NCBI GenBank assembly: GCA_913050325.1
Contig: CAJWZP010000004.1
Coordinates: forward strand, 1-64,000
Length of the DNA: 64,000 bases
Reading direction: 5' to 3'
Origin: an uncultured bacterium
GTDB taxonomy: Bacteria; Desulfobacterota_D; UBA1144
The translations under genes were made by a program, and so were the position numbers. This document shows, piece after piece, positions 39,541 through 44,109 of this stretch. The notes beneath the pieces were generated by a model, which was not told where the DNA came from, did no database searches, and worked only from the letters and a program-made list of their open reading frames with translations. Within the stretch, counting starts at the first letter, position 1. Every line of letters starts with the position of its first letter.

Positions 39541-40167
39541 ATGAATAAATATATAGCAGAACTTTATGGAACTTTTCTTTTAGTATTATCAATTATTGGA
39601 ACTCATTTAATGGTAGATTCATTTGGAGCCCCTCCCTTTATTCAATTATTATGTATAGCGCTTGTTGTAGCATTGGTACTATTGTCGAATATCACTATAT
39701 TTTCAAAAGTATCTGGTGCTCATTTTAATCCTGCTGTTAGTCTTATGATGTATTTAAGAAAAAACATAAGCTTAAATGATTTTATTTCTTATTCTTTTTT
39801 ACAAATTCTTGGAGCTATATCAGCAATATTTTTTGCTCATATAACCTTTGGTACGGGTAGCTTTGAAATTTCTCCTATATCCAGATCCACCAATGGAATA
39901 TTATTATCTGAATTTTTAGCAACAAGTGGATTATTAGTAGCTATAATTCATTCTGATAAATTTTTTCCTGAAAAAGTTCCACAGGTTGTTGCATCATATA
40001 TTTTTGCTGCGACATTTTTCACTACGTCAACATGTTTTGCAAATCCTGCAGTAACAATTTCAAGAATTTTTACATCCTCTGGTGTAGGAATAAATCTTGA
40101 ATCGGCTTTATATTTTTTATTAGTTGAAATCCTTGCGGTTGTTATTGTATCTAAAGCAATAAATTAA
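39541..40167 (+). CDS. Aquaporin/MIP family channel
   Basis: SGAHFNPAVSLM and CFANPAVTISR (two NPA boxes). Confidence 0.9.
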   Translation: MNKYIAELYGTFLLVLSIIGTHLMVDSFGAPPFIQLLCIALVVALVLLSNITIFSKVSGAHFNPAVSLMMYLRKNISLNDFISYSFLQILGAISAIFFAHITFGTGSFEISPISRSTNGILLSEFLATSGLLVAIIHSDKFFPEKVPQVVASYIFAATFFTTSTCFANPAVTISRIFTSSGVGINLESALYFLLVEILAVVIVSKAIN

Positions 40168-40367
40168 TGTTTAGCTATTAAAGATTGAATAGTAAATGTA
40201 ACAGATGGGCTCTCTGTAACATTTAATTGTTCTTCAATTTTTTCATTGACTATTCGGTAAGCAATTTTAAACATTGTTGAATCAACAAAAACTTTAAAAT
40301 AATCTAATCTTCTAATTTGATTTGCTAATAAATTCTTAGCTTGGTTTTCTTTATCTTTGTTACTCAT
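40164..40367 (-). CDS. Small hypothetical protein
   Basis: 67-aa ORF, coherent composition. Confidence 0.4.
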   Translation of the reverse strand: MSNKDKENQAKNLLANQIRRLDYFKVFVDSTMFKIAYRIVNEKIEEQLNVTESPSVTFTIQSLIAKH

Positions 40368-40592
40368 CGACAGCTATTATTTTATATATTTTTAACTTTG
40401 TCAATTTTTAATTTTAAAATATCTAAATATCCTAAATTAATGATTTTTTTCAAATCTATATATTGTATTATTTTATTAATTAAATACGATATATAGAAAT
40501 TTTAGTTATATTATTTAAGTTATGTCAAAGTTTTAAATCTATTTTAATATTTTTTCTTTGACATTATAATTTTTTTATTTTAAAAATAAAAT

Positions 40593-40652
40593 ATAGGGCT
40601 TGTATTCTATTAAATCGTCTCCTCCTGATTTTAGATATAAGCCTTTTTTTTT
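40593..40652 (+). ncRNA. Predicted small RNA or 5' leader hairpin with anti-Shine-Dalgarno apical loop and U9 tail
   Basis: Stem 40597-40605/40635-40643 continued by 40607-40616/40627-40634 (2-nt bulge), apical loop GUCUCCUCCU (40617-40626), then T9 (40644-40652); TTGACA at 40558-40563 upstream. Confidence 0.6.
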
Positions 40653-40724
40653 GTTTGTTTTTCTGTGATTTTTTTACTACAATATCTATGGTTAATTTTA
40701 AGATTAAAAGAAGGAGTTTTCACA

Positions 40725-40952
40725 TTGATTAGTGAATCAATAAATTTCATGATCTTAGGAATGATTACTGTTTTTTCATTCCTATTAATTATGATAGTAG
40801 TTCTTAAAGTTCAAGCATTCATTGTTGCTAAAATTAATGCAAATTTTGACACTGATAATAAAGAGAATAAAAATAACAACAATAATTCTCTTGGACAAAG
40901 AAAAATTGCGGTTATAGCTGCAGCCATAAAAAAGTTTAAGCAAAACAATTAA
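40725..40952 (+). CDS. oadG: Oxaloacetate decarboxylase gamma subunit-like (OadG)
   Basis: TTG start with AAGGAG; MISESINFMILGMITVFSFLLIMIVVLKV then charged tail; directly upstream of oadA/B. Confidence 0.75.
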   Translation: MISESINFMILGMITVFSFLLIMIVVLKVQAFIVAKINANFDTDNKENKNNNNNSLGQRKIAVIAAAIKKFKQNN

Positions 40953-40966
40953 TTTAAGAACTATAA

Positions 40967-42793
40967 GTGATATTTAACATTATGAGCAAAAAATATATAG
41001 ATATAATGGATACAACTTTTAGGGATGGTTTTCAATCCGTTTTTGGTGGAAGAGTTTTAATGGAGGATTTCATGCCTGCAGTAGAAGAAGCTGCTAAAGC
41101 TGGAATTACTCATTTTGAATTTGGTGGTGGAGCCAGATTTCAGAGCTTGTTTTTTTATTTAAATGAAAATGCTTTTGATATGATGGATAAATTTAGAGAT
41201 GTTGTTGGTCCTAATGCTAATTTGCAAACACTATCCCGTGGTATAAATACCGTAGCTCTTGATACCGGTAGTCGTGAAATAGTAGATTTACATGCAAAAA
41301 TGTTTAAAAAACACGGTACTACAACAATTAGAAACTTTGATGCTTTAAATGACGTATCAAATCTTGAATATAGTGCAGAGTGTGTCAACAAACATGGATT
41401 ACAACACGAGGCTGTTATAACTATGATGGATTTACCTCCGGGTTGTGTAGGAGCTCATACCGTTGATTTTTATGAAAGTATATTAAGACAAATTTTAGAT
41501 TCTGGAATGAAATTTAATTCATTGTGTTTTAAAGATGCAAGTGGAACATCTCATCCAAAGAAAGTTTATGAAACTGTTAAAATGGCTAGAGAGTTATTAT
41601 CAAAAGATGCTCACATTAGATTTCATACACACGAAACTGCAGGTGTAAGTGTTGCGTGTTATTTGGCCGCTTTAGATGCGGGAGCAGATGGTATTGATAC
41701 TGCACTAGATCCTTTATCTGGAGGAACAAGTCAACCAGATATTTTAACAATGTTACATGCAACAAAAAACACAGAATATAATTTAGGTGATTTAGAAAAT
41801 AATAAAATTTTAAAATATAGAGAAGTTTTGATTGATAGGTTAAAAGAATATTACTTCCCTGGTGAAGCTCAAAAAGTTTCTCCTTTGATTCCTTTTTCAC
41901 CAATGCCTGGTGGTGCTCTTACAGCTAATACACAAATGATGAGAGACAATAATATTTTGGAAAAATTTCCACAAGTGATAGACGCCATGGGAGAAGTTGT
42001 TGAAAAAGGGGGTTATGGAACTTCTGTAACACCTGTTTCACAATTTTATTGGCAGCAGGCTTTTGCAAATGTAATGTTTGGGAAGTGGAAGAAAATTGCT
42101 GATGGATATGGAAAAATGGTTTTAGGATATTTTGGTAAAACTCCTACTGAGCCAGATTCAGAAATAGTTGCACTAGCCTCTGAGCAACTTAAACTTGATC
42201 CAACAAAAGAAAATCCTCTAGACATAGCGGATAGAGATGAAAAGAAAAGTATTTCTTATTGGACAGGTGTTCTTAAACATGAAGGTATAGAAATAAATGA
42301 TGAAAACATATTTATTGCTGCAGCCTGTAATGATAAAGGTATAGAATTCTTAAAAGGTGAAGCTACTGTAAATGTTAGAAAAAATGTTCAAGATGAAGCA
42401 CAGTCAACAACAACTAAACCTTCTGAAACATCAGATGATAGAGTTGAATCCTATACAATTGTATTAAATGGAGAAAAATTTAATGTTCAAGTTGCTAAAG
42501 GCGAAGATGTAAACATAGTTGCTACCAATAAATCTGAAGAAACTAATGTTAAAAATGAAGCTCCAATATCATCTGGGGATGGGAAACAAGTACCGGCGCC
42601 AGTTAATGGAGTTGTAACAAAAATCCTTTCAAATCCAGGCGATAATGTATCTTCAGATCAAACTGTTATGATTCTAGAATCGATGAAAATGGAAATTGAG
42701 GTAAAAGCTGGTTCAGACGGTAAAGTTAGTTCAATTGATGTTGCTAAAGGTCAAAATGTTGAAGAGGGTCAAGGTGTATTTACATTAGTATGA
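40967..42793 (+). CDS. oadA: Oxaloacetate decarboxylase alpha subunit-like carboxyltransferase with biotinyl domain
   Basis: [36 protein letters not shown]-terminal [11 protein letters not shown] biotinylation motif. Confidence 0.9.
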
Positions 42794-44109
42794 TATTAAG
42801 AAAAATATTTATATTGTCATTATTTTTTTTATCATTTGTTTTCATTTCATCATTAAATTCTTACAGTGATGAAATTAACAAAAAAGATGAGACTTATGAG
42901 AAAAAGAATTTAACTCAATTATTAAAAAATCTTTACAAATCTACAGGTGTCTTCGAATTTTCAAATCCAGTTGAGGGTAAATTAGATGCTAGTAAGAAAA
43001 GTCCTATGTCTATTTTTAACCAGACATGGGGGCGTGGAATAATGATTTTTATAGCTTTTTGTCTTTTTTATCTAGCAATTGCAAAAAACTTTGAGCCACT
43101 ATTGTTAATCCCCATTGGTTTTGGTGGACTATTAGCCAATATTCCAATAGCTGAGATAGCTGGTCCTAATGGATTCGTTGGAATTTTATATAATATGGGT
43201 GTTGAAACAGGTTTGTTTCCTATTCTCATATTTATGGGTGTAGGTGCAATGACAGATTTTGGACCTTTAATAGCTAATCCAAAGACTGCACTTTTAGGTG
43301 CAGCCGCACAATTTGGTATTTTTGGAACTTTAGTTGGAGCAGTATATTTATCACAAAACACAGATATTATAAATTTTTCACTTCAAGATTCAGCGGCAAT
43401 TAGTATTATTGGTGGAGCGGATGGTCCAACTGCAATTTTTATTGCATCTAGGCTTGCTCCAGATTTATTGGGCGCAATTGCTGTTGCAGCTTACTCATAT
43501 ATGGCTTTAGTTCCAATAATTCAACCACCTATAATGAGAGCATTAACTACAGAAAAAGAAAGACAAATCAAAATGGTTCAATTACGAAAAGTTAATAAAC
43601 TAGAAAAAATCATTTTTCCATTAACAGTTCTATTTTTATGTATATTGGCCTTGCCTGATGCAACACCTCTAGTAGGTGCCCTATGTTTTGGTAATTTTGT
43701 TAAAGAATCAGGAGTTGTTGAAAGACTTTCAGAAACTTTACAAAATTCATTAATAAACATTGTTACTATTTTTTTAGGACTTGCTGTTGGGTCAAAATTA
43801 GCAGCTGATAAATTTCTTGTTCCTGAAACTTTAGGAATTATTTTTCTTGGACTAGCAGCTTTTTCTGTTGGAACTGTTGCAGGACTATTAATGGCAAAAT
43901 TAATGAATAAACTATCTAAGGACCCTATAAATCCTTTAATTGGTTCAGCAGGTGTTTCTGCTGTACCTATGGCAGCTAGGGTCTCTAATAGAGTAGGATC
44001 GGAATCAAATCCATCTAATGTGCTTTTAATGCATGCAATGGGACCTAATGTTGCAGGAGTTATTGGATCTGCTGTAGCTGCCGGTGTATTGATTTCAATT
44101 TTTGGATAA
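42790..44109 (+). CDS. oadB: Sodium-translocating decarboxylase beta subunit
   Basis: [70 protein letters not shown]. Confidence 0.93.

Follow-up and report, generated by a model that had tools for sequence, protein, structure and literature searches.

What is the role of the single hairpin that lies just upstream of the oxaloacetate decarboxylase genes oadGAB in an uncultured bacterium of the GTDB lineage UBA1144? The locus was studied in a window of 64,000 nucleotides (nt), which corresponds to positions 1 to 64,000 of contig CAJWZP010000004.1. The explanation we favor, to which we give a probability of about 0.6, is that positions 40593-40652 constitute an independent RNA gene of 55 to 60 nt, with a sigma-70-type promoter and one hairpin, the anti-Shine-Dalgarno (anti-SD) loop of which would act in trans without Hfq. 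An initial annotation of this DNA had already proposed an independent anti-SD small RNA (sRNA) with a TTGACA promoter and a U9 terminator, and the comparison of genomes argues for it: promoter, terminator and loop are conserved, while the stems have changed. The elements of the putative transcription unit are as follows.

40558-40563, plus strand: putative -35 element TTGACA of the hairpin RNA, inside CTTTGACAT, invariant in all six hairpin-bearing genomes
40581-40586, plus strand: position of the -10 element according to the alignment, TAAAAA here and TATAAA in the five homologues, spacer 17
40597-40643, plus strand: hairpin RNA, with the 5' arm at 40597-40616, the loop, and the 3' arm at 40627-40643
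40617-40626, plus strand: apical loop GUCUCCUCCU (GTCTCCTCCT in DNA letters), 10 nt, anti-SD-like, presumed seed
40644-40652, plus strand: U9 tract completing the intrinsic terminator (6 to 9 T in all six copies)

The hairpin is real. TTGACA, stem, 10-nt loop and U9 all stand where they had been annotated, and the 56-nt hairpin has a minimum free energy of -16.9 kcal/mol, compared to a mean of -6.6 for its shuffled versions (z = -4.8), none of 1000 shuffles being as stable. For the five homologous hairpins, z lay between -4.5 and -6.1. The fold signal resides in the hairpin itself, because the whole 163-nt context gave a z of only -1.8. In each of the six copies, all loop bases except the two at the ends are unpaired at a level above 0.9. 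Other copies of the hairpin, a search for which had been suggested, were then sought in the full genome (1.0 Mb, 28% guanine plus cytosine (GC)). The 15-mer TCGTCTCCTCCTGAT occurs there once, and among 173 terminator-like hairpins, a genome-wide set produced by one script, a CUCC-type anti-SD loop was found in a single one, that of the window.

The element was found upstream of oadG in all five genomes of the same genus (the window's and four others), as well as in a genome of the sister genus (G010). Conserved across these six genomes of two genera are CTTTGACAT, the -10 region, the hairpin, its loop and the T-tract. The loop is identical in the six genomes while the arms drift: when the window is compared with G010, all 15 positions of the loop region are identical, against 9 of 22 for the 5' arm and 8 of 17 for the 3' arm (41 to 47%). 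The G010 arms nevertheless pair, despite more than half of their bases differing from those of the window. A loop that varied between conserved flanks had been named as an outcome that would speak against a regulatory role; the opposite was observed. Over the six sequences, 96.5% of pair cells are kept in the arms, versus 31 to 49% in slid versions of the pairing. Taken together, pair counts and fold scores indicate that both the hairpin and its loop are under constraint.

A covariance model search of 58 genomes of the phylum gave no further convincing copies beyond the window and its five relatives. The other matches to the model (G022, G033 and weaker ones) were unrelated hairpins or chance, and matches to the 15-mer pattern outside the family were not terminator hairpins. 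In a third genus (five genomes) and a fourth (one genome), the oadG promoter and Shine-Dalgarno (SD) sequence are kept, with no hairpin upstream of oadG. By this comparison, the hairpin RNA appears restricted to two related genera of small-genome bacteria.

Two minor observations concern copies of hairpins. In G002, the hairpin locus is present on two contigs (C11 and C15), which is probably an assembly duplication near contig ends. In another family, L227 and L228 have in common, near position 1510-1550, a near-perfect 18-bp hairpin beginning GGGTTGTATCCCGAAGC, which is unrelated to this RNA.

From the promoter, transcription is predicted to start at about 40593-40595, that is, 2 to 4 nt from the foot of the stem. 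The hairpin would then be at once the whole body of the RNA and its intrinsic terminator. Two features of anti-SD trans-acting sRNAs in general are found here: an own promoter together with an intrinsic terminator, both as conserved sequence signals, and an anti-SD motif that is exposed and conserved beyond the stem. A coding role was considered and rejected: in some copies, a short frame with a TTG or ATG start runs through the loop, but neither start nor frame is the same from copy to copy, and that of G010 bears no relation to the others. An RNA from the minus strand, with an SD-like loop, was likewise rejected: with the T-tract on the plus strand, such an RNA would not end at the hairpin.

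The same signals might be read as a plain transcriptional stop with a loop of incidental sequence, which would shield the oad promoter from stray transcription arising in the divergent region. Every part of an intrinsic terminator is indeed present. Yet no other part is as well conserved as the loop, none of the other terminator-like hairpins (173 in all) has one like it, and a conserved promoter of its own precedes the hairpin, which makes such a stop very improbable. In addition, the hairpin is not needed as a read-through terminator of the nearest upstream gene (40164-40367), since this gene runs the other way. The gene, a 67-amino-acid (aa) open reading frame (ORF), has no Pfam match. It is faced, on the minus strand at 40499-40528, by a strong promoter-like match (TTGACA-18-TAAAAT, 11/12).

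How might the RNA act? It would be transcribed from its own sigma-70-type promoter, and its apical loop GUCUCCUCCU may imitate the anti-SD end of 16S ribosomal RNA (rRNA). Most likely, the loop would pair in trans with the purine-rich SD regions of mRNAs, without Hfq, and this pairing would block ribosome binding and result in repression. We propose SD pairing in trans because the anti-SD loop sits on a self-terminating RNA. Structure, promoter and terminator signals, conservation of the loop and restriction to two genera emerge from the comparison of genomes; transcription, mRNA pairing and repression are what we infer from them. None of the family's 14 genomes gave a match to Hfq (PF17209), while five control genomes did.

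Pairing of the loop with translation initiation regions (TIRs) was computed for 1038 ORFs called mechanically in the window's genome, and jointly for 904 orthologue pairs with G010; the comparison covers these two fully read hairpin genomes. The best loop-TIR energies were -20.3, -19.0 and -18.2 kcal/mol. When the loop was shuffled at constant composition, the observed fifth-best TIR energy was reached in only 1.7% of trials, which speaks for the anti-SD reading. The joint ranking placed on top strong-SD genes such as tuf, together with two small ORFs. The candidate specific targets (an SDR gene, rpsQ, a PII-like gene, tuf and the two small ORFs) were rejected: they rank high, but loops with shuffled flanks do equally well. 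AGGAGGAGAC also has perfect sites at other places of G001 and G010; these lie inside ORFs and were discarded.

Several results weigh against a trans-acting anti-SD RNA. The -10 element of the window (TAAAAA) is weak, and the promoter looks weaker than in the homologues; a promoter scan of the window favors AAAAAT with spacer 18 (10/12 matches). The start and end of the RNA are conserved sequence signals, from which its transcription is deduced. Covariation, an analysis of which had been suggested, is modest. The arms still pair, and three pairs show double changes; this level was, however, equalled in 31 of 500 shuffles, the counts being made on six sequences only, in an alignment fitted to the covariance model. 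As for targets, when the CUCCUCCU core was kept and the flanks shuffled, 42% of the loops reached the best TIR energy. No specific mRNA target emerged from the 1038 ORFs and 904 orthologue pairs, the loop flanks adding nothing beyond the anti-SD core, and target prediction with the loop as seed, which the initial annotation had advocated, led to generic SD pairing. Finally, the two small ORFs, the TIRs of which match well in both fully read hairpin genomes, are not specific to hairpin carriers: the TIR of the 67-aa one is kept in four hairpin-less genomes, and that of the 66-aa one in one.

Either there are few targets, which escaped notice because too few genomes were available, or the action is broad. 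It is conceivable, though rather doubtful, that in this lineage, where Hfq was not found, the one-hairpin RNA of about 60 nt is a broad tuner of translation, titrating many SD sites instead of a few targets. Such a titrating RNA would be close to the smallest possible anti-SD regulator, consisting of a promoter and a terminator whose loop carries the seed.

The partner of the loop may also be something other than an SD sequence. The loop could bind a protein, in which case the RNA would sequester an RNA-binding regulator as a sponge or decoy. Alternatively, the RNA could pair with a non-SD partner such as rRNA. Neither the loop nor its closing bases vary, even at positions where a change would be compatible with SD pairing, and the loop has a 12-bp match, with one G-U pair, to 16S AGGAGGGGACGA. 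This match is within chance: an equally good one was obtained with 26 of 3000 loops shuffled at constant composition and with 256 of 3000 in which the core was kept. It falls in a segment that is buried in the head of the 30S subunit, which counts against an rRNA partner. For a protein partner, there is no candidate. We regard a partner of this kind as quite improbable.

Known RNAs were examined for kinship with the anti-SD RNA that we propose. No match to Rfam was obtained over the whole window at gathering thresholds. The nearest sRNA match, RF02278 (a toxic sRNA of Betaproteobacteria), scored 15.6 bits for a gathering score of 50 (E = 0.26); the five homologous loci yielded no match to it with E up to 3. 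The RF02278 model shares GUCUCCUC but describes a double hairpin, whereas one hairpin is present in all six copies here. For suhB/mmgR (RF00519), the score was 9 bits, below the gathering score of 41. The Burkholderia RNAs with CU-rich double hairpins are alike in principle (PMC5688073).

RepG, alpha-r14/NfeR1, Yfr1 and RF02278 are the closest analogues; where defining features of the last three were tested, they proved absent from this locus. Helicobacter pylori is not known to possess Hfq, which was not found in the present lineage either. In its RNA RepG, the terminator loop is the seed (PMC8295292), as would be the case here. RepG differs by a further 5' stem-loop, while no second stem-loop fits into the transcript predicted here, and by its known targets, which are G-repeats in leaders and not SDs; phylum and locus also differ. 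Alpha-r14/NfeR1 of Sinorhizobium combines an ultraconserved anti-SD motif in unpaired regions with strongly variable stems, and its pairing at the initiation region prevents translation (PMC10746234). It has three hairpins, each with CCUCCUCCC, compared to one hairpin with GUCUCCUCCU in the window, and the link to alphaproteobacterial anti-SD RNAs drawn in the initial annotation could not be upheld, given a single hairpin and a different loop motif. The cyanobacterial Yfr1, an RNA of 54 to 69 nt, has a terminator hairpin and an ultraconserved motif that includes CUCCUC (PMC2190773). In Yfr1, ACUCCUCACAC is unpaired between two hairpins, while here a different motif is in the apical loop of the terminator. 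The locus appears to hold a small sRNA candidate that belongs to a known functional class but is apparently not yet listed, its function being suggested by sequence features.

Provided that it is expressed, this RNA would define a new family of sRNAs in a lineage that is streamlined (a genome of about 1.0 Mb with 28% GC) and in which Hfq was not detected. It would represent a very small form of the anti-SD loop strategy, with promoter, terminator and seed within about 95 bp, and with one promoter, one hairpin and one 10-nt loop it is clearly testable.

Downstream of the U-tract lie the signals and genes of the oad operon.

40655-40683, plus strand: separate putative promoter of oadG, TTGTTT-N17-TACAAT, located after the hairpin and conserved in relatives with and without it
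40711-40716, plus strand: oadG SD, AAGGAG, the same with or without the hairpin
40725-40952, plus strand: oadG, oxaloacetate decarboxylase gamma chain, TTG start (PF04277, E = 1.8e-12)
40982-42793, plus strand: oadA, oxaloacetate decarboxylase alpha chain (PF02436, PF00364, PF00682)
42790-44109, plus strand: oadB, oxaloacetate decarboxylase beta chain (PF03977, E = 4.5e-155)

Given this position, the hairpin could be a conditional terminator (attenuator), at which a protein or RNA binding to the invariant loop would allow read-through into oadG. It always lies just upstream of oadG, two genomes without an oadB match (G007 and G008) are likewise without a hairpin match, and a protein-binding site would also look like an invariant loop. 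However, the oadG promoter stands between the hairpin and the gene and is kept where the hairpin is missing (it scores 10/12 in its L027 version, TTGTCA-17-TAAAAT), and therefore oadGAB can be expressed without the transcript of the hairpin. The start, as predicted at the foot of the stem, leaves no upstream leader and no room for an antiterminator fold. Pairing of the loop with the oadG SD, which had been put forward as an attenuation mechanism, is weak (about -8 to -9 kcal/mol), so that oadG is a poor target; with the intervening promoter and an SD unchanged whether or not the hairpin is present, this mechanism finds no support. Overall, we consider an attenuator unlikely.

Two side observations concern the oad genes themselves. 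The start codon of oadG (position 40725 in the window; L032-L037 elsewhere) is TTG in all hairpin-bearing genomes, and ATG or GTG in the hairpin-less relatives. The nearest matches to OadB (66 to 71% identity; L039-L045), found in a contig scan from which near relatives were possibly left out, are mostly from Campylobacterota, which hints at a horizontal transfer of oadGAB.
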